Shown here: positions 1 to 29,788 of the stretch, in pieces
Layout: each line of letters starts with the position of its first letter
How positions within the stretch are numbered: position 1 is the first letter of the stretch
Assembly (NCBI GenBank): GCA_028875575.1
Contig: JAPPDF010000072.1
Location: 1-40,547, forward strand
Length of the DNA stretch: 40,547 nt
Direction of reading: 5' to 3'
Origin: Acidobacteriota bacterium
GTDB lineage: Bacteria > Acidobacteriota > Terriglobia > Versatilivoradales > Versatilivoraceae
Made by a program: the position numbers and the translations under genes
The notes under the pieces: model-generated
What the model was told of the DNA's origin: nothing
The model's input: only the letters and a program-made list of their open reading frames with translations
Database searches by the model: none

Positions 1-60
1 CACGCGCTGAAGGGAAAATTCCTGCGCCATGATCATGCCCCCTGGTGAGAAATGTGGGCT
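1..60 (-). repeat. TIR-bounded repeat, copy A (cut by window edge)
   Basis: This is the terminal 60 bp of the same repeat found complete at 4708-4955 and 28450-28694, in minus orientation. Bases 41-60 match the 20-bp terminal inverted repeat with one change (aatgtggg instead of aatgcggg). Bases 1-40 match the adjoining interior of copy B almost base for base, including one arm of the internal hairpin. The rest lies left of the window. The element edge falls on the stop codon of rseP. Confidence 0.85.
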
Positions 61-1405
61 AGGGGAAATACTTTCCCAGGGATGCGGGAAGCGATTTGAT
101 GATGTCGTTGTAGGTCACCGCCACGACCAGCAGGATCACCATGACGACGCCCACCTGTGTCACCCTCTCCCGAACGCTCAAGCTGAGGTCCCGTCCAACC
201 AGAGACTCTACCAGAATGATGGCGATGACCCCTCCGTCCAGGATGGGGATGGGCAACAGATTGACGATTCCCAGGTTGATGCTGATCACGGCGATGAACA
301 TGATCAAATCGGTGATGCCGGACTGTGCGGCCAGGCTGGACTGTCTGGCAATCGCTATCGGACCACCGACCATGCTCACCGGAGCGGTGCCCCGAAGCAG
401 CCGATGAAGGAACTCGAACAGCAGTCCGGCGAAGCGGACATTCCGCTCGATTGAAGCGTCCAGCGCCTCCACCAGGGAGAGCTGCTGGACGGTGGTTCTG
501 GCCATGGGGTTCAGCATGACCCCGATCATTCGTCTTTGGGTGGTTTCGTCCAGGTAGGGGGTGACCTGGAATTCCAGCTCCCGGCCGTTGCGCAGGACCG
601 TAATCGGTATTACCGGATCCTGGTTCCGGCCCATTGCGTCCACCAGGTCGAGTCCGGCTTGGCTGAGTACCACTCCGCCCACCTTGACCACCTGGTCTCC
701 CGGCAAGATGCCGGCCTCGGCGGCTGGTTTGCCTGCCAGCACCTGCTGGACCTGAACCGAAGCCAACTCGAAGGGGGCAATTCCCAGGTAGCCGGCACTG
801 TCGCGACCGCGGGCCGCGGGAGTCAGAGTCAATGGGAAGGCTTGTTCTCCTCGCTGGACCTCCATTTGCAAGGGAACTCCGGGACTGATGCTGACCTCCA
901 GAAGAAACTCTTCCCAGGTGGGGTCTTGCCTGGCGCCGGCAGCGACGATGCGGTCACCCGGCCTGAGATCGGACTGGAGGGCAGGAGAGTCGGACTTGAT
1001 CAAGCCCACCACCACCGATTCCCGAGGCCAGACAGGTACCTCGTACCGGTAGTAGAAGAGCCCGGTCAGCAGGACCACCGCCAGCACACCGTTCATGACC
1101 GGGCCCATTACGGCCACAATGAATCGCTGCCACTTGGGATGCGAAAGAAACTCTTCGACTCCCCCGGTTACGTCGTCGGGGTTTTCACCCGCCATCTTGA
1201 CGTACCCTCCCAAGGGAATCGCACAGACCTTGTAGTCCGTTTCCCCGCGCCGAAAGCCGAACAGGCGTGGACCGAAACCGACCGAAAAGGCCTCGACGCG
1301 AATCTTGAAAAACTTGGCCGCGCCAAAGTGGCCCAGTTCGTGAACCACCACCACGGTCCCGAACACCACCAGCACAGCCAGAACACCCCATAGAAAATCG
1401 ATCAT
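59..1405 (-). CDS. rseP: Site-2 intramembrane zinc protease RseP
   Basis: Membrane-embedded M50 metalloprotease that cleaves anti-sigma factors and remnant signal peptides within the membrane. The zinc motif HELGH is at residues 22-26, inside the first transmembrane segment. Two PDZ domains follow (about 130-200 and 210-285). The second active-site motif, NLLPIPILDGG, lies near residue 385 in the C-terminal membrane region. The 448-residue length is usual for the family. It is the last gene of uppS-cdsA-dxr-rseP and starts about 85 bp after dxr. The TAG stop is formed where repeat copy A begins: the gene ends GKYFP and the next bases are the TIR. The end looks natural, so the insertion appears not to have truncated the protein. 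Confidence 0.96.
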   Translation of the reverse strand: MIDFLWGVLAVLVVFGTVVVVHELGHFGAAKFFKIRVEAFSVGFGPRLFGFRRGETDYKVCAIPLGGYVKMAGENPDDVTGGVEEFLSHPKWQRFIVAVMGPVMNGVLAVVLLTGLFYYRYEVPVWPRESVVVGLIKSDSPALQSDLRPGDRIVAAGARQDPTWEEFLLEVSISPGVPLQMEVQRGEQAFPLTLTPAARGRDSAGYLGIAPFELASVQVQQVLAGKPAAEAGILPGDQVVKVGGVVLSQAGLDLVDAMGRNQDPVIPITVLRNGRELEFQVTPYLDETTQRRMIGVMLNPMARTTVQQLSLVEALDASIERNVRFAGLLFEFLHRLLRGTAPVSMVGGPIAIARQSSLAAQSGITDLIMFIAVISINLGIVNLLPIPILDGGVIAIILVESLVGRDLSLSVRERVTQVGVVMVILLVVAVTYNDIIKSLPASLGKYFP

Positions 1406-4420: not shown

Positions 4421-4692
4421 GAATCCGCGTATCTCGGTGCAGGGCCGAACTCGCGAGGCGGGTCGAGGCATGGAGCCGGATTTGTCCCTTCAAGGCGTGC
4501 TCGCGACCGAAGGGCGTCGCCGGGCACTACGTCCGAGGAAGCACTTGCGCATTGAAGGGGAGAAGACAAGTCGGGACGCGCCCAGCACCGTGTGTAAGTG
4601 CCAACCTTCAAGATAGCACCAACAAACTGTTGAAAACAAACGGTCTTTACAGGGTGTGCCCAGCGTCCCGGTGGGAGATGGCAATCCTAGTT
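4421..4692 (+). repeat. TIR-bounded repeat, copy D (old, degenerate)
   Basis: A diverged copy in the same orientation as copy B, 15 bp before it. The left end (about 4421-4442) resembles the TIR with several changes. The interior shares the hairpin block GTGCTCGCGACCGAAG, with arms CCCTTCAA (4486-4493) and TTGAAGGG (4552-4559). The right half resembles copy C around AACGG and the outer GGTGGGAGATGG end. Boundaries are approximate. With copy B it fills the 658-bp gap between uppS and truA, where I see no gene. Confidence 0.65.
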
Positions 4693-4707
4693 CCGAGGCA
4701 GATCACG

Positions 4708-4955
4708 AGCCCGCATTTCTCACCAGGGGGCATGATCATGGCGCAGGAATTTTCCCTTCAGCGCGTGCTCGCGACCGAAGAGCGTAGCGGTCACTACGGT
4801 CGAGGGAGCATGTGCGCGCTGAAGCAAAAAAGACAAGCCAGGGCATGCCCAGCGCCGTCTGTTACCCACAAGCCCTTTACATTGAGCCAATCCAGGTACT
4901 GAAAGATAAATTTCCTTTCGTCATGCTACCAGCGGCCTGATGAGAAATGCGGGCT
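4708..4955 (+). repeat. TIR-bounded MITE-like repeat, copy B (intact)
   Basis: A 248-bp element bounded by AGCCCGCATTTCTCACCAGG (4708-4727) and its inverted copy (4936-4955, one mismatch). It carries a 69-nt imperfect hairpin with outer arms CTTCAGCGCG (4756-4765) and CGCGCTGAAG (4815-4824), then a conserved block around GCCAGGGCATGCCCAGCGCC. There is no transposase and no clear target duplication. Its right edge falls on the truA stop codon. Copies: A at 1-60, D at 4421-4692, C at 28450-28694. MITE-like is inference from the TIRs, size and copy number. Confidence 0.88.
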
Positions 4956-5769
4956 AGTAGCCGACCCAAACCAGGAAGAGACCTTTGGCTGGAGCGGTCG
5001 GGCCAGCTCTGGAACGGTCTTTCGATTGCAGAATGGCAGGGATGGCTTCCACCGGGAGCTTGCCCCTGCCCACTTCCAAAAAGGTGCCGACCAGATTCCT
5101 GACCATGTGGTGCAGAAACCCGTCGGCACAAACGTTATATTCCAGGAGTTTTCGCCGGGTGTCAAACACAAAAAGGGAGGTGGTGACTTGCCGAATCTTG
5201 GATTTCGCCTGGCTGTCGGCGTCGCAAAAGGCGCTGAAGTCCCGTTTCCCCACCACCAAATCGGCGGCCCGATTCAACTTCTCATAGTCGAGCCTGCGAT
5301 GGAAGTGATGGACATAGGGGTAATCGAAGGGTGGGCACCAGGAGGTGTTCAGGATTCGATAGCGATAGTGTTTGGTTCGGGCATGGTGTCGGGCATGGAA
5401 GTCGTCAGCCGCCTTCTCAATTCCGGTAACCCGGATGGTTGCCGGCAGACGGGAGTTCAAGGCCTTCCAGAGGCTGGACGGTTCCAGGCGCGAGGTCGTA
5501 TGGAAATGACAAACCTGGGCCAGCGCGTGAGCTCCGGCGTCGGTTCTTCCCGAGCCGCAAACATGGACCGGCTCCTGCACGATGCTCTCAAGCGTGCGGG
5601 TCAACTCACCCTGGATGGTTCGGAGTCGGGGCTGGATCTGCCATCCGTGGTAGCCTGTTCCATCGTACTGGAGCTCCATCCGGAGGTTTTGCGAGGGCGA
5701 CCCCGGGCCTTGCGGCGAGACGGGGCGGTCTGGATCGGAAGCGGGGCCGGTTGGCATCTGGACCTGCAC
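4954..5769 (-). CDS. truA: tRNA pseudouridine(38-40) synthase TruA
   Basis: Converts uridines 38-40 of the tRNA anticodon stem-loop to pseudouridine. The N-terminal domain motif YDGTGYHGWQIQP is near residues 35-47, and the catalytic aspartate lies in SGRTDAGAHALAQVCHF. The C-terminal half has HHMVRNLVGTFLEVGRG and ends GLFLVWVGY, as expected for the family. The chosen ATG gives 271 aa with about 30 extra N-terminal residues rich in Pro and Ser; an internal ATG just before ELQYDG would remove them. The TAG stop is created at the edge of repeat copy B directly after the last family residue. It follows pyrE by 32 bp and is probably co-transcribed with it. Confidence 0.94.
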   Translation of the reverse strand: MQVQMPTGPASDPDRPVSPQGPGSPSQNLRMELQYDGTGYHGWQIQPRLRTIQGELTRTLESIVQEPVHVCGSGRTDAGAHALAQVCHFHTTSRLEPSSLWKALNSRLPATIRVTGIEKAADDFHARHHARTKHYRYRILNTSWCPPFDYPYVHHFHRRLDYEKLNRAADLVVGKRDFSAFCDADSQAKSKIRQVTTSLFVFDTRRKLLEYNVCADGFLHHMVRNLVGTFLEVGRGKLPVEAIPAILQSKDRSRAGPTAPAKGLFLVWVGY

Positions 5770-11392: not shown

Positions 11393-11418
11393 AGGTCCGC
11401 CCTTATTGGAAACAAACC

Positions 11419-11465
11419 AAAAAAGAGTGATCCACGAAGGAACACGAAGGACGACGAAGGGCCAC
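11419..11465 (+). repeat. CACGAAGG-type interspersed repeat
   Basis: A 47-bp unit beginning AAAAAAGAGTGATCC with three tandem near-copies of CACGAAGGA. It recurs inverted at 27539-27586 with about five differences. The rest of the 230-bp gap between pilD and the PilX-like gene holds a partial inverted echo (TTCGTGGTTCCTCGTCG near 11550) and no gene that I can see. Confidence 0.75.
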
Positions 11466-11622
11466 TAAGCGTGACCGCTCTGCCGCATCGGTAGGGCTGC
11501 GGCCCCTGACGTCGTCGCCGCAAAGGAGATCCATCGGTACTTGGGTCTATTCGTGGTTCCTCGTCGACAATCATCGGCAGTTTCTTCCTCCAATGATCTG
11601 TCCGGCAGGCCAGGGGCGGCCC

Positions 11623-14779: not shown

Positions 14780-14929
14780 TTGGCCGAATTTCTGCAACAG
14801 CCGGTCCGGATCTTTGCCGACCTCTCCTACTCCACTCTCAAGAGCTGGTCCCGCGAGCGCCGTGTCGTGGCCAAAGCCGAGGTCCTCTACCGCGGCCCCA
14901 ACCCCCGCTTCGTCGTCACCTCCCTGTCG
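14780..14929 (+). pseudogene. IS1380-type transposase remnant
   Basis: About 50 codons resemble the internal catalytic region of IS1380-family (DDE) transposases: the string VRIFADLSYSTLKSWSRERR, then VVAKAEVLYRGPNPRFVVTSLS. The similarity stops after about 14929, although the frame stays open to 15019 with unrelated sequence. No N-terminal part or inverted repeats are seen; the fragment begins right after the GspH-like stop. It is a broken relic whose right part overlaps, antisense, the last codons of the subtilase gene. The family call rests on remembered motif similarity. Confidence 0.7.
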
Positions 14930-18945: not shown

Positions 18946-21900
18946 TCATGGGCCTGATCCGGTGTCCTCCGACTCGGAGTTTCCGGGAAGGCTCCCGGTG
19001 AAGAACTGCAACTTGGTGCCCGTGGTCCTTATTCCAAGAACGGAAACAGCCAGTTGAAAGGGGCTGGTGCCAGGAACATCCAGGCACATCTCGATGATGG
19101 TCGGCCGGTCGAACTCCCCGAACGAGAATGCTTGATGTCTCCCGGAGACCTCCAGGCTGTCCGGAGCACCGACCAGGTTCCTCTTCAGATCGAAGGCACG
19201 AAAGTGCAGCTGGGTTCCGGACGGCGCAGCTTGGCCCGGTTGGGCGGGCACCACGGCAAGAACCACATCGTCTCCGTTGCCGTACTGGCCCGTCCACCTG
19301 CGACAGTCCCCGTCTGCCAAAAGATCTCCGGAGAACTGGCCGCCCAGGGTATGGAGTTCGTCGACCTCCCCATCGACCTGGTTTTCAAGCAGGGCCCGTC
19401 CCTGAACCTGGAGGGAGCCGGCAGAACAGGGGGACCGAGCGAAAACGGAGACGGCCCCCACTGTCGCTTCCTGCGCATCGGGTGCCGTCAGGGTCAGAAT
19501 CTCGGCGCCTCCTCTCGGAATGGTGACGTGGTGCAGGTTCCGGTCCGGGAACAGTCCGTCGAAGGATACTGCCGGAGCCGGGGTGGTTCCCTGGTGAAAA
19601 AGCACGACCACTTCACAGTCAGTTGCCTGGGGATCTCTGTGGGTGACGACAAGCTCGGTTCGGGCCATGCTTTCATCCAGGGGGCCCATGAAGACATGCG
19701 GGAGGGTGGCCACCGTCGAGCAGCGCGCGCCATCCCACAGGGAGAGGCAGAAGGGATCCTCGTCGTCGGTCTCGAAGTCGGAAACGGTGAGGGTGTGGAT
19801 GGACCCCTGACCGGAACCAAGAAGCAGGCTTTCGGTCTCCAGGTAGGGAGCGTCGGGACCGGCTCCGTCGGACCGGTGTAGACCGATTTCCTCGAGCTTT
19901 CCCAAGGTCAGCAGGAGGGTCCGTTTCCCCTGAACAACCGAATCCTTTGGCAGGCTAAGGGTGATTTTTCGTTCGGTTTCCCCGGCCGGAAACACCAGCC
20001 CGCTGTCCGGCGAGGGCGAGGGACCCGTCAACTCGCCCGTGGACCCACTGACGCCCACCCTATAGGGCACCCGTACCGCCACCGGCAAGGCCCGGCTCAA
20101 CTCGACCGGAACTCTTATGGGGGCGCCTTCAGCCACCCGCTGAAAGGCCGTAGGGAAAGAAATCCCCGCTTTCAGGTGTGAGTCGACCCGCAATTCACCT
20201 CGACGGAGAAGCAGGTCGATAAGCATTTCGTGGCCGAGTGTATCGAGCACATCGTCGAATATCCCCAGGGGCAATTCGCTCAGAGGGTTGAAACTCAGCT
20301 CCAGATCCGCCAATCCGCTCAGTCCGTTAAAGACTCCCTCGGGCAAGGAGCTCAGGGAGTTGGACGATAGGTTCAGCCAGCGCAGGGCTTTCAGCCCGTG
20401 AAACACTCCCTCGGGCAAGGTGCCGAGGGAGTTGGAATGCAACCACAGTAAGTGCAGCGAACCCAGTCCGCGAAATATCCCCTTGGGCAAGACGCTGAGG
20501 GAGTTTCGAAATAGCATCAGCTCTTCCAGGTTAGCCAGCCCGCTAAAGATTCCCTCGGGCAAGACATTCAGGCTGTTACGCTGTAACCGCAACATATCCA
20601 GATTGTTAAGCCCGCTAAAGATCCCCTCGGGCAACGAAGTCAGGGAGTTACTGTACAGAATCAGTTCTCTCAGTGAGCTCAATCCCTGGAAGACATTTTC
20701 GGGTAGTGAAGACAGGGCGTTGCCCTGCAGCCACAGTATTTCCAGCTTGCCCAATCCGCTAAAGATCCCCTCGGGTAATACAGTGAAATCATTGTCATTT
20801 AGCAAGAGGCTTCGCAGGGAATTCAATTCATCGAAAACTCCATGGGGCAAGCTGCTCAGGGAGTTCCTCTGTAGCCAGAGCTTATCCAGGTTGTTCAGTC
20901 CGCGAAAGATCTCCTCCGGTAAAGAGTGCAGTTGGATGTCAGCCAAATGCAGACTTTGCAGAGAATTCAGGCCCTGAAAGACATTTTTGGACAAAGTTTG
21001 CAGGGGGTTATCCCATAGCCACAGGTCTCTCAGGGAACTCAGGTCTCTAAAGATCCCCTCGGGCAAGCTGCGAAGGGAGTTGCTATTCAACGACAGAAAC
21101 ACCAGCGAATTCAGTCCGCTGAAATCGTTCGCTCGAAGATGGGTGATGCCGGCCCCCCAAAACCTCAGCCTTTCGACGCCGGTAAGGTGCGCCGTGGTGA
21201 CGTCAGCGCAGTCGGATACCTCCGGGATCGCTGCGACCAGCGCGTCCCGCACCAGCCGCGTGCGCTCGCAGACGTCTGCCGGAAGGGCGTTGACAATGGT
21301 GACGGTGTGGACGGCGCCCTCATCAGGGCGGATCAGCAGGGAATCTGCCATCAGGTAGGGAGCGTCGGGGCCCGTGCCGTCGGAACGACTCAGTCGGATT
21401 CGGGAGAGTTCCCCCAGCCTCACCTCGATCGTCTTGCCCAGGCTGTTCGCGTCTTGCGATAGGCTAAAGACGATGTCCTCGGGGAGCCGGCCCGGCGCGA
21501 ACAGCAATTCTCCGGCAGGGAGGGGCTGCAGACCGGCATCATCATCCGCGGAGGCGGTCCACTCCAAACTGTACGGTACACGAACGGCCACTGGCAGGCC
21601 ACGGCCCGAATTCTCTCTAACTCTAACTCGCACAGTGTAACCGGCAACGGTGCTTTGCCCTTTCGACTGGAAGGCAAGGCTGGCCATGAGGAAGGGATCG
21701 ACCCGCAGGTCTTCCAACGTATCCAGCACCTCGTCGTAGACTCCCAGGGGCAACCCTCTCGGAAATCTATTCATGGAGTTGTCCTGCAACCACAGCGCTT
21801 GCAGGGAACTCAGTCCGTTGAGGACGCCTGCGGGTAACGTGTTCAGTTTGTTTTGATGGATGAACAGCTCTGCCAGTGAGTTCAGCCCGTGGAAGATCTC

Positions 21901-22212
21901 CTCGGGCAATGTCCTGAGGAGGTTGTGACTCAGGTTCAGCGTCCTGAGGCGGCTCAACCCTTCAAAGTCCCCTTGGTGAAGCCAGACGATATCGGAATGC
22001 GAGAGATCCAAAGTTGTCACTCGGGCCAGGTGCCCCAGAGTTACGCCCTCGCATCTTGACACTCCTGCCAACTGCACCAACCTGTCCCGAACCTGCGGCG
22101 TGCGGTCGCAAATCCCCCGCGCGGCTACGGTGTCCACCATCATGAAAAAGAGCCACGCAACCCAGCAAAGGACCAGCGACGCTCTGTGAGGTCGTGTCGG
22201 TTTCCCAGGCAT
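18946..22212 (-). CDS. Secreted leucine-rich-repeat protein, duplicated LRR plus Calx-beta-like modules
   Basis: A 1088-residue secreted protein of unknown function. A signal peptide (1-31, ending VAA) follows the ATG at 22212; an in-frame start at 22287 would bury it. Two modules follow. Each begins with a Cys-flanked helix (CDRTPQVRDRL and CERTRLVRDAL), has 24-residue LRRs of the form LPEGIFSGLxxLxxLxLxxNxL, and ends in a beta domain (LPVAVRVPY to GPDAPYL) resembling Calx-beta. The first module has three repeats, the second twelve (about 359-646). The final 275 residues are Cys-containing beta-rich sequence that I do not recognise. The repeats are of the typical type seen in Slit and lamprey VLR proteins. 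It probably binds protein or glycan ligands. The subtilase gene lies 33 bp downstream. Confidence 0.85.
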   Translation of the reverse strand: MPGKPTRPHRASLVLCWVAWLFFMMVDTVAARGICDRTPQVRDRLVQLAGVSRCEGVTLGHLARVTTLDLSHSDIVWLHQGDFEGLSRLRTLNLSHNLLRTLPEEIFHGLNSLAELFIHQNKLNTLPAGVLNGLSSLQALWLQDNSMNRFPRGLPLGVYDEVLDTLEDLRVDPFLMASLAFQSKGQSTVAGYTVRVRVRENSGRGLPVAVRVPYSLEWTASADDDAGLQPLPAGELLFAPGRLPEDIVFSLSQDANSLGKTIEVRLGELSRIRLSRSDGTGPDAPYLMADSLLIRPDEGAVHTVTIVNALPADVCERTRLVRDALVAAIPEVSDCADVTTAHLTGVERLRFWGAGITHLRANDFSGLNSLVFLSLNSNSLRSLPEGIFRDLSSLRDLWLWDNPLQTLSKNVFQGLNSLQSLHLADIQLHSLPEEIFRGLNNLDKLWLQRNSLSSLPHGVFDELNSLRSLLLNDNDFTVLPEGIFSGLGKLEILWLQGNALSSLPENVFQGLSSLRELILYSNSLTSLPEGIFSGLNNLDMLRLQRNSLNVLPEGIFSGLANLEELMLFRNSLSVLPKGIFRGLGSLHLLWLHSNSLGTLPEGVFHGLKALRWLNLSSNSLSSLPEGVFNGLSGLADLELSFNPLSELPLGIFDDVLDTLGHEMLIDLLLRRGELRVDSHLKAGISFPTAFQRVAEGAPIRVPVELSRALPVAVRVPYRVGVSGSTGELTGPSPSPDSGLVFPAGETERKITLSLPKDSVVQGKRTLLLTLGKLEEIGLHRSDGAGPDAPYLETESLLLGSGQGSIHTLTVSDFETDDEDPFCLSLWDGARCSTVATLPHVFMGPLDESMARTELVVTHRDPQATDCEVVVLFHQGTTPAPAVSFDGLFPDRNLHHVTIPRGGAEILTLTAPDAQEATVGAVSVFARSPCSAGSLQVQGRALLENQVDGEVDELHTLGGQFSGDLLADGDCRRWTGQYGNGDDVVLAVVPAQPGQAAPSGTQLHFRAFDLKRNLVGAPDSLEVSGRHQAFSFGEFDRPTIIEMCLDVPGTSPFQLAVSVLGIRTTGTKLQFFTGSLPGNSESEDTGSGP

Positions 22213-23081
22213 GTCGTTTAGCCCGAATTGCTCGCCAGAGTTAGGACACAGCCTCGAACACGCCCCCACTGGGGCCCCGGCCGCCACCCTGGGTTCGATC
22301 GAACCCGGGACAATGCCCCAGCCACTCCAGGGCGGGTCGCGGCTTGTGTGCTTGCTCGGCCGTTGATATCGGAAGACCGAGACATGGAGCCGTGTCCGTG
22401 TTGCCGGGAATGCTTTGTCAACAGTCGGAACTCCCGAGCCCTGTCCGGCTCCGACGGCACCCGATCGGAGTCCTCGCGCGGTGGCCTGCTACTCCTCAGC
22501 CGAGGAGGAAACGGGTATTCGATGGATCGCAGGACAGGATAGACAAAGCAAGTGAATTCAGCGTGATCGTGAACACGATTGTGGTGATAATTTGGTGATG
22601 GTCTGCAAGAAACCGTTTTTTGTAACGCTCGGACAGCGCGGTGCGCTTTGAATTCAGCTCTTTCAGGGATCCGATGCCCTCAGTCTTGCAGGCCAACCCA
22701 GTCAAGAACTCCCTTGGTAAGAAATAGGGGTTCACAGTGATGAGGTAACGCTGAAGGGTCTGCTTGCGGTATTAGAGGGGGCAGGAGAATTGCGTGTAGG
22801 TGATGCCGGTCTTTGGGGGGGCATGCGGCCTCTGGGAGCCATTTTCAGGTTGGCAGGGCAGATGAAGTCTTGTCCTTGGACTCGGAAACCGGAGTCGGGT
22901 TGGTAACGGGCATTGGGTGCGATGACGAGTTGAGCTCCGAGCTGCTGGTGATTATTGTGAAAGGCTGTAGTGCCGGGAGGCCAATCAGGGAAGGTCTGGA
23001 ACCGGTTTAGGGATCCAGAGTATCAGACTTGCAGAGACTTATGACGATTCAGGCCGAGGGTTTCCCGAAAGGGAAAAACTC
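22213..23081. other. 869-bp region without a recognisable gene
   Basis: Between the start of the LRR gene and the stop of the DUF1501 gene no open frame shows a recognisable family or good start signals. The left part should hold the LRR/subtilase promoter. A 14-bp palindrome lies at 22566-22579. Short frames at 22496-22735 (minus) and 22813-23010 (plus) look like chance. The stretch may be decayed sequence. Confidence 0.5.
22566..22579. promoter_or_regulatory. Palindrome ATCGTG-AA-CACGAT
   Basis: A perfect 6+6 bp dyad with a 2-bp spacer, about 350 bp upstream of the LRR gene. The size fits a dimeric regulator's operator, but there is only one copy and the distance is large. Role unproven. 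Confidence 0.25.
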
Positions 23082-27223: not shown

Positions 27224-27376
27224 AACATCGATGCACAGGATGCACAGGATTAGCAGGACGAGAGCTTCCTGCACCAGAAGCCGGCTCGGGCGATAATCCG
27301 GTGCGGATTCGCGGATGTCCAGGACTGCAAGCCCGCCGTCTCCAGAAAAATCCTGTGCATCCTGTGCATCGATGTT
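27224..27376. repeat. 153-bp element with perfect 28-bp inverted ends
   Basis: Bases 27224-27251 and 27349-27376 are exact reverse complements. Each arm contains ATCGATGCACAGGATGCACA, that is, tandem GATGCACAG units. The 97-bp centre shows no gene. The element lies in the 635-bp gap between the ubiE stop and the DUF1549/DUF1553 start, which has no gene but also carries two other repeats. Confidence 0.85.
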
Positions 27377-27538
27377 AATAATTCATGCAAATCACGATGC
27401 GATGGGAAGCGCCCCCTACTGGCTTCGCCGCGGTCCTTGTTGCCCCTTCGCGGACGAATCCTTTTTGTGCCTTGCGTCCTTCGTTGACCCCTGTTTAGAC
27501 CTTTAGCGCATCCCTCGTGAGCCTTCTCCAACCCCTTG

Positions 27539-27586
27539 GTGGCCCTTCGTAGTCCTTCGTGTAACTTTGTGGATCACTCTTTTTTT
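27539..27586 (-). repeat. CACGAAGG-type interspersed repeat, second copy
   Basis: Reverse-complement copy of the unit at 11419-11465: the T-run, GATCACTC, then CTTCGTG units. More degenerate units (CCTTGCGTCCTTCGTTG and similar) extend left to about 27440. Downstream of ubiE. Confidence 0.75.
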
Positions 27587-27717
27587 GTTGTTTCAGGCAA
27601 GCGACCGAAGTCATACCGACAACCCCAGGGACTAAAGAGTTGCTCTTGGAGTTCCCCAGGCACCGTAGACTGTCGTTGAATCTTGCAAGGGTGCATTATA
27701 CACCCCGCCGGCACGGG

Positions 27718-28443
27718 TCACACCGCCGACTTCCCATGTTTGATTCCCCAGTGCAGAGCGGCAATCCCGCCACTGAGATTGCGGAAGGAGACCTTGGCGA
27801 AACCCGCTTCCTTCATCAGTCGGCAGAGTCGGGCTTGGTCGGGAAAGTCCTGCACCGAGTCGTGCAGATATCGATAAGCGGTGCCGTGCCCGGAGATGCC
27901 CTGGCCGATCCTGGGCAGAATCCACAGGAAGTAAAGCTGGAAGAGCCAGTTGAAGAGTGGACGCGTGGGCCGTGAGAATTCCAGAACCACGATCCGGCCC
28001 TCGGGTTTCAGCACTCGCCACATCTCTCCCAGCCCTTCACTCCAGCTTTCCAGGTTGCGGAGCCCGAACGCCACGGCCAGTCCGTCAAAGGTGTCGGTCG
28101 GGAAGGGCAGCCTCAGAGCATCGGCTTCCAGGAGCTGGACCCGTTGCTGCAGTCTCCGCTTGGCGAGTTTCTCGCGGCCCAGCTTCAGCATGGGGTGACT
28201 GAAGTCCGAACCCACGATTCGAGCCGATCCCTGTTTGGCCATTTCCACGAGCAGGTCTCCGGTGCCGCAGCAGAGGTCCAGGCAGAGGGCCTGCCGGTCC
28301 TCCAGCGGGTGGGTCAGCAGGGAGGCCGCCTGGCGGCGCCAGCTCCGGTCCACGTTGAGAGACAGCAAGTGGTTCAACAGATCGTAGCGGGGGGCGATCG
28401 AGGAGAACATCTGGCGGATCTGACTGGCTTGTTGACTCAACAT
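27718..28443 (-). CDS. ubiE: Ubiquinone/menaquinone biosynthesis C-methyltransferase
   Basis: SAM-dependent methyltransferase for the quinone ring (MenG/UbiE). Motifs: FSSIAPRYDLLNHLLSLNVD near the N-terminus, the SAM-binding DLCCGTGDLLVEM, and VAFGLRNLESWSEGLGEMWR; the C-terminus GGIAALHWGIKHGK is typical. The ATG at 28443 gives 241 aa and the family start (MLSQQ). An in-frame ATG at 28458 lies inside the TIR of repeat copy C and would add MRAPY; it has a GGTGAG just upstream. Either way, the translation-initiation region lies in or against the repeat. aroB is upstream on the same strand across the element. Whether the quinone is menaquinone cannot be seen here. Confidence 0.94.
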   Translation of the reverse strand: MLSQQASQIRQMFSSIAPRYDLLNHLLSLNVDRSWRRQAASLLTHPLEDRQALCLDLCCGTGDLLVEMAKQGSARIVGSDFSHPMLKLGREKLAKRRLQQRVQLLEADALRLPFPTDTFDGLAVAFGLRNLESWSEGLGEMWRVLKPEGRIVVLEFSRPTRPLFNWLFQLYFLWILPRIGQGISGHGTAYRYLHDSVQDFPDQARLCRLMKEAGFAKVSFRNLSGGIAALHWGIKHGKSAV

Positions 28444-28449
28444 GTAGGG

Positions 28450-28694
28450 AGCCCGCATCTCTCACCAGGCCGCTGAATACATCTTGGAGCGCCGTTGGTA
28501 TTCAGCACTTGATCGAATCGATTGTGAGTTCTTGCGAAACCAGACGGCGCTGAGCGTGCCCTGGCTGGTTCTTTTCCCCTCAGCGCGCACATGCTCGCTC
28601 GACCGTAGTAGCCGCTACGCTCTTCGCTCGCGAGCACGCGCTGAGGGGAAAATACCTGCGCCATGATCACGCCCCCTGGTGAGAAATGCGGGCT
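28450..28694 (-). repeat. TIR-bounded MITE-like repeat, copy C (intact)
   Basis: A 245-bp element bounded by 20-bp TIRs (28450-28469 and 28675-28694, one mismatch), in opposite orientation to copy B. The internal hairpin has perfect 16-bp outer arms (28572-28587 and 28637-28652). A second hairpin (GCTGAATAC/GTATTCAGC) lies near the ubiE end. The outer stem differs from copy B by a paired T-A to C-G change. It overlaps the aroB stop codon and ends six bases before the ubiE ATG. Confidence 0.9.
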
Positions 28695-29788
28695 CGGCGA
28701 GACTGGCTCAGGTATTCCCGGACGACCGCTTCCACGACGTCGGGTGGGGTGTCCTCCACGATTTCCACTTCGCCGATGCGTCGGGGCAGCACGAATCGAA
28801 GACGGTGGTCGGTAAATTTCTTGTCGGAGCGCATGTGGTGGTGGATCGATTTCCAGGTGAGGTTCCCCAACGGGGGAAGTGGGGAGAGCCGTCTCAGGTC
28901 CGATTGGATGGTTTCAGCCTCGGTCGGATCGATCTTGTCCAGTTGCAACGCGATCCGGGTGGCCAGGATCATTCCGTGGCCGATGGCCTGCCCGTGGGTG
29001 AACCGCCTGTAGCGGGTGGCCGCCTCGATGGCATGGCCGAGCGTGTGACCGAAATTGAGCACCATGCGGGCCTGGCTTTCCCGTTCATCCCCGGAGACGA
29101 CGGCGGCCTTGATTTCGACGCAGCGGACAATCATTCTGGCCAGTCCGACTCTGTCCCGGCCAGGATAGCTCCGGTGCTGCCGAACCACCCGGTCGTAGAG
29201 CTTGCGGTCGGCAATCACGCCGTACTTGATGGCTTCAAAGAGTCCCGAGTCCAGCTCCTGGCGGGGCAGCGTGAGAAGCAGTTCCGGGTCGACCAGGACG
29301 GCCCGGGGCTGATAAAAGGCGCCCACGAGGTTTTTCCCCGTGCTGAGATTGACCCCGGTCTTGCCTCCGATGGCGCTGTCGATCTGGGCCACCAGAGTGG
29401 TGGGAACCTGAATGTAGGGCAATCCGCGCAGGTAGCTGGCGGCCGCGAATCCGGCCACGTCCCCAACCACGCCTCCCCCCAGCGCGACCACGGGGGTGCG
29501 GCGGTTGACACCCAGCCCGGCCAGCCTCTTGTAGATCGATTCCAGCGTGGACAAGGTCTTGAAGCGCTCCCCATCCGGAATCTCCAGGACCTCGTGAGGC
29601 AATCCCGCCTCGGTTAACGACCGCTGCAGGGCCTCTCCATGCAAGTCCAGGATTCGCCGGCTTGAAACCACTACCAGCCTGGCTGCGGATCTCCAGGGAT
29701 GGAGAAGGCTCCCGACCTTGGACAGCAGGCCGTTTTCGATGTAGATCCGATACCCTCTATCGGCCAGGTTCAGGGGTACGATCTTCAT
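28667..29788 (-). CDS. aroB: 3-dehydroquinate synthase
   Basis: Second shikimate-pathway enzyme, NAD- and metal-dependent cyclisation of DAHP. Motifs present: IPDGERFKTL, ALGGGVVGDVAGFAAASYLRG, the string QVPTTLVAQIDSAIGGKTGV, GKNLVGAFYQP, FEAIKYGVI and NFGHTLGHAIEAAT with the metal-binding histidines. Length 373 aa. The last eight residues (ARISHQGA) and the TGA stop are encoded by the TIR and first bases of repeat copy C; the family would be expected to end near YLSQSR. Loss of the native stop and a short extension is inferred. ubiE lies downstream. Confidence 0.95.
   Translation of the reverse strand: MKIVPLNLADRGYRIYIENGLLSKVGSLLHPWRSAARLVVVSSRRILDLHGEALQRSLTEAGLPHEVLEIPDGERFKTLSTLESIYKRLAGLGVNRRTPVVALGGGVVGDVAGFAAASYLRGLPYIQVPTTLVAQIDSAIGGKTGVNLSTGKNLVGAFYQPRAVLVDPELLLTLPRQELDSGLFEAIKYGVIADRKLYDRVVRQHRSYPGRDRVGLARMIVRCVEIKAAVVSGDERESQARMVLNFGHTLGHAIEAATRYRRFTHGQAIGHGMILATRIALQLDKIDPTEAETIQSDLRRLSPLPPLGNLTWKSIHHHMRSDKKFTDHRLRFVLPRRIGEVEIVEDTPPDVVEAVVREYLSQSRRARISHQGA

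Follow-up and report, generated by a model that had tools for sequence, protein, structure and literature searches.

The hairpin at positions 28572-28652 is the core of a ~245-bp non-coding MITE, a new family of a known kind, and there is reasonable evidence that its pairing is maintained in the mobile lineage. Throughout, the window is the whole 40,547-nucleotide stretch of acidobacterial DNA that was analysed. Our preferred reading, with a probability of roughly 0.6, is that the hairpin is the MITE's structural core, that an IS1380-type transposase probably moves the MITE, and that keeping the fold favours the copies of the mobile lineage. The initial annotation of the window had seen the repeat's hairpin but had not recognised the repeat as a MITE.

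The element and its ends

The features of the window on which the analysis draws are as follows:

28452-28692, plus strand: MITE copy C, full length (TIR matches; empty site in four relatives)
28572-28587, plus strand: outer stem, left arm, 16 pairs (sequence, fold)
28637-28652, plus strand: outer stem, right arm, 16 pairs (sequence, fold)
28579, plus strand: left base, with partner 28645, of the pair singled out by the initial annotation; C-G in copy C (copy alignment, parsimony)
28645, plus strand: right base of that pair, with partner 28579 (copy alignment, parsimony)
28597-28627, plus strand: apical two-sided pair, 28597 G with 28627 C, in a register shared with the outer stem
4710-4953 (4706-4957 with flanks), minus strand: MITE copy B, full length, in the opposite orientation to copy C
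4469-4680, minus strand: copy D, a decayed MITE adjoining copy B (profile match and alignment)
1-58, plus strand: copy A, a right MITE end cut by the contig start (TIR match)
28667-29788, minus strand: 3-dehydroquinate synthase-like (aroB) gene (ORF call; named by reading of the sequence)
27718-28443, minus strand: ubiE/menG-like methyltransferase gene, flanking copy C on the side opposite aroB (ORF call; named by reading of the sequence)

Copy C is bounded by 18-bp TIRs, CCCGCATCTCTCACCAGG (28452-28469) and CCTGGTGAGAAATGCGGG (28675-28692), with decayed 4-bp flanks (GGAG and CTCG). The same ends flank copy B, outside which lie CGAG (4706-4709) and CTAG (4954-4957), and one such end is seen in copy A, where the CTAG that follows holds the stop codon of a gene at 59-1405 (minus strand). 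At 59-62 and at 4954-4957, and for 24 copies across the genome, the 4-bp target supplies the stop codon of the adjoining gene, so that insertions fall precisely at gene ends. The aroB-like frame at copy C now ends inside the MITE. Genes were called with a simple codon-usage script.

Across the 4.49 Mb genome (101 contigs) there are 166 TIR matches, 81 forward and 85 reverse, against none for a reversed-pattern control; the inner arm word matches 44 + 46 times, and the number of MITE copies is approximately 90-100. The complete copies that were aligned (n = 55) measure 243-249 bp. Identical flanking 4-mers (TSD) were found at 32 of 58 copies, where shuffling gave a mean of 17 and a maximum of 24; the matching 4-mer is CTAG in 23 copies, and all eight TTAA copies carry TTAA on both sides. 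No full-length copy (~245 bp) contains a match to PF13701 (IS1380 transposase) and the MITE therefore has no transposase gene. In short, the element has TIRs and a target duplication, is dispersed in many copies, is polymorphic between relatives with empty sites, and carries no transposase gene, as expected of a MITE. Every one of the seven genomes sampled from the genus has it, whereas 54 other relatives all lack it. In unit size it does not fit a REP/RAYT palindrome (20-40 bp), the unit here being a ~245-bp TIR element.

A PF13701 profile search of the genus returned fragments only, with no intact autonomous IS1380. Three of these relics lie between MITE-like TIRs (1-3 mismatches), one in the same genome as the window (L103) and two in two relatives (L126 and L129). 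Because transposase relics in the genus carry the MITE's own TIR, IS1380-type mobilisation is likely, judging from the shared ends. PF01609 transposases were also considered as movers; the genome has none. When 84,980 genomes were searched with CCCGCATTTCTCACCAGAG, this end turned up in Myxococcales, Gammaproteobacteria, Planctomycetota, Acidobacteria and other groups, mostly at the borders of short elements that are folded over their whole length.

The window has further sequences of this kind. A PF13701 fragment at 14795-14929 (plus strand; E 3e-8) lies between two genes and is a relic of an autonomous element, and 22222-22730 holds the decayed remains of a 509-bp element whose ends are IS1380-like, each with 4 mismatches, and whose inner end is CCAGAGTT. 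Two inverted repeats have no evident relation to the MITE: 11415-11469 with 27535-27589 (55 nt, 89%) and 27224-27251 with 27349-27376 (28 nt, perfect). At 20248-21982, 72-nt periodic repeats in a long minus-strand reading frame are probably leucine-rich repeats.

Versions of the MITE of ~131 bp, with the same ends and without the whole hairpin, occur three times in the same genome (L058 342-472, L073 1171-1300 and L067 2266-2396) and about 18 times across the genus. The hairpin is thus not strictly needed for insertion. Within the genome, copies with the hairpin outnumber those without it by about thirty to one. ATGCCC stands at both edges of the part that is missing.

Paired changes and rates across copies

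The outer stem of copy C pairs TTTTCCCCTCAGCGCG (28572-28587) with CGCGCTGAGGGGAAAA (28637-28652) over 16 uninterrupted pairs. As DNA, 28572-28652 folds at -29.7 kcal/mol (z -5.9), and none of 200 shuffles equalled it. The 16 perfect pairs reported by the initial annotation are real, but they are not an extension as it supposed: 16 pairs are the family norm and copy B, with the arms CTTCAGCGCG/CGCGCTGAAG, is a decayed copy, so copy C gained no pairs. The two-sided difference at 28579/28645 is likewise genuine (C-G in copy C, T-A in copy B), with the direction reversed from the T-A to C-G change first proposed; parsimony on 108 copies makes C-G the older state and T-A derived in copy B's clade. 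In the apical part, the pair 28597/28627 is G-C in copy C and C-G in other subfamilies. Copy D does keep pairing arms despite its decay, CCCTTCAA/TTGAAGGG, with one private double change from G-C to A-T and also several one-sided mismatches.

We aligned 109 hairpin-covering copies to one model. The model pair 129/195, corresponding to 28579/28645 in the window, is T-A in 57 copies and C-G in 42, most of the others being unpaired or gapped; at the neighbouring pair 130/194, 92 copies have T-A and 15 have C-G. A tree-aware test on 100 copies counted 13 paired-to-paired (WC-to-WC) double changes in the stem, against a mean of 1.4 and a maximum of 8 under a null that keeps the tree, the substitution types and the column rates (0 of 2000 replicates reached 13); in L083, what looks like a double change at 130/194 may come from a base shifted in the alignment. 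Sliding the pairing register left 0-3 double changes. When all position pairs were considered, the register of the stem (the antidiagonal i+j=324) collected 18 events, and the runner-up 6. An R-scape-like pairwise test (G-statistic, APC, tree-preserving null) gave no significant pair among the copies, the best stem pair having E ~1.5, since the statistic is dominated by a few old splits between subfamilies. The covariation claim therefore rests on the event count and on no one pair; at the level of individual pairs, the covariation check proposed with the initial annotation gives no clear support.

The rates of change point in the same direction. Substitutions per site in the left part of the element, the stem, the apical part and the TIRs came to 3.87, 0.69, 0.66 and 0.40, respectively, on internal branches, and to 2.29, 0.76, 0.66 and 0.92 on short terminal ones. 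The hairpin is thus 5-6 times slower than the left part on internal branches, a ratio that can be inflated by the noisier alignment of the left region. The constraint on the hairpin is nearly TIR-like on internal branches, and is relaxed at the tips relative to the left part.

What happens after insertion can be read from orthologous sites. The copy C site is occupied in G005, the nearest relative, and empty in G001, G003, G004 and G006. Between copy C and its G005 ortholog there are three stem differences, all one-sided, with the pairs broken in G005. Pooling five orthologous insertion pairs, with the ileS copy described below left out, gave seven one-sided and no double stem changes, which on these few data is compatible with the proportion in the lineage (chance ~0.48). 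One further pair of apparent orthologs, L071 and L157, which differ as T-A/C-G, was set aside: L071 is cut off by a contig edge, and the match is confined to one flank.

Slow change of the hairpin on internal branches, together with decay after insertion, places maintenance mainly on the mobile lineage and not at this locus. Since the arms tend to change together across copies, the importance of the fold seems to lie with the element that spreads and not with the adjoining gene. The initial annotation's proposal that the folded form is maintained thus stands for the repeat family (double changes, one register, internal-branch constraint), whereas selection at the copy C locus is not supported, given the three one-sided differences in G005.

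What keeps the hairpin folded

Roughly a hundred copies, with empty sites and orthologous insertions, make it possible to ask whether the fold serves the element, serves the host or is a by-product of replication. The answer leans towards the element, although at one locus, the ileS leader, there seems to be constraint in the host. According to the preferred reading, an IS1380-type transposase probably recognises the CCCGCATTTCTCACCAGG ends and inserts the MITE at CTAG or TTAA. Lineages whose hairpin is kept folded would leave more copies, so that compensatory changes would accumulate in the mobile lineage; after insertion the constraint would be relaxed and the arms would drift one-sidedly, as at copy C. 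The likeliest benefit of the fold would be that a compact foldback element, sitting mostly at the ends of genes, transposes more efficiently or is better tolerated by the host.

The exceptional locus lies upstream of a gene that, from its translation, we take to be ileS. A MITE is common to G003 (L269), G006 (L274) and G004 (L275) at this site and absent in G000, G001, G002 and G005. The G004 and G006 copies differ at one of 242 bases, where their flanks match at 85-90%. In the comparison with G003, nine of 75 sites differ in the left part and one of 128 in the hairpin half (p 0.0006). This suggests that the MITE hairpin may have been co-opted in the ileS leader of the three species. An upstream TATAAT is conserved in all seven species. 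We entertain, more tentatively, a wider reading: that a folding requirement, arisen by convergence or by descent, is general to IS1380-type MITEs of distant phyla and aids their spread, with one hairpin co-opted in the ileS leader. This is possible, and we would not put it at even odds.

Template switching during replication, in which one arm serves the polymerase as template for the other, would keep the pairing without any benefit of the fold. Such switching has been described as able both to create and to maintain hairpins (PMC8794818), and L041/L065, like L111, do show two stem pairs changing on a single branch. Against this, several mismatches persist that arm copying should have removed: a C.A mismatch at 127/197, between compensated pairs, in a clade of ~14 copies, and an A.C mismatch at 137/187 kept by a subfamily of 27. 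Internal TC/TC mismatches are near-invariant in all copies. Mismatches left unrepaired across whole subfamilies argue against frequent arm copying. The arms of copy C have also diverged one-sidedly, and conservation of the apical part would need a separate cause. We consider template switching unlikely.

The hairpin might instead be selected by the host, copy by copy, for a function in RNA at 3' ends or in leaders, where it would stabilise the mRNA or act as an attenuator or a processing site. Known MITEs act in this way (PMC10969869, PMC2229807). The genomic positions would suit such a role: not one of the 62 copies whose flanks could be used is inside a gene, convergent neighbour contexts outnumber divergent ones (18 to 6), and 24 neighbouring genes terminate exactly at the duplicated CTAG or TTAA, with the stop codon inside it. 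The ileS copy, with its conserved hairpin part, also fits. However, the gene-end location is explained by the target itself, because CTAG and TTAA hold stop codons. The copies show no orientation bias relative to neighbouring genes (16 versus 20), and copy C's ortholog carries the three one-sided stem changes. RNA from the minus strand is predicted to fold with G-U pairs, but wobble mismatches show no strand preference, with 45 versus 41 over all 16 stem pairs and 281 versus 245 in an unpaired control; an asymmetry that at first pointed to minus-strand RNA (13 versus 3 internal events) was gone once the 16 pairs and the control were used. A host-level function of each copy is quite unlikely.

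Recombination among members of two old subfamilies, which would move whole hairpins and mimic repeated double changes, agrees with most C-G/T-A differences tracking subfamilies and with a few branches that could be mosaics (e.g. L159 and L160), but is highly improbable given at least four private pair types without a donor among the copies (T127-A197 in L041/L065, T128-A196 in L111, G129-C195 in L142 and A133-T191 in copy D) and given L022, a T-A copy in a C-G subfamily that still has the markers of its subfamily between the altered arms. To judge from their sequences, these private doubles and the T-A of L022 cannot come from recombination between known copies.

Comparison with known repeats

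Comparison with Rfam gave no match at the gathering score and weak matches at chance level only. The pneumococcal repeats SPRITE and BOX have extensive predicted secondary structure, and SPRITE is enriched near the 3' ends of convergent genes (PMC3049150). SPRITE resembles a Rho-independent terminator, whereas the MITE hairpin has no terminator-like site: AAAA follows the stem on both strands, and no intrinsic terminator (G+C-rich stem with a T-run) was found in 28400-28800.

The IS1380 family, taken in PMC10813416 as an outgroup to eukaryotic piggyBac, shares with the MITE the TIR (the PF13701 relics of the genus lie between such TIRs) and insertion at CTAG/TTAA. The MITE differs in having no transposase and, by eye, its sequence beyond the TIR does not follow that of the relics. 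Foldback MITEs with IS1380-type TIRs also occur in Myxococcales, Gammaproteobacteria and other groups (L194-L230), with the same terminal repeat and YTAR target and a strongly folded interior. These are 157-229 bp long, fold end to end and, beyond the ends, share only short words with the MITE described here; we did not treat a 13-base word in common with the Myxococcales MITEs, GCGAGCACGCGCT (E 0.007), as a sign of homology. In Myxococcales MAG sequence, two IS1380-TIR foldback MITE subfamilies (L263 and L261 versus L196) show many two-sided differences that preserve pairing.

Foldback is often stated for bacterial MITEs; among the papers searched, we found none testing it by compensatory change. 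Like the MITE described here, ERIC, Correia/NEMIS, RUP and QMITE are short, non-coding, intergenic and multicopy, with TIRs, a target duplication and a very stable stem-loop (PMC10969869, PMC2229807). The likeness is one of description. Unlike them, this MITE has a separate, asymmetrically placed internal hairpin beside an unpaired and fast-evolving left part, and the maintenance of its pairing was tested across copies.
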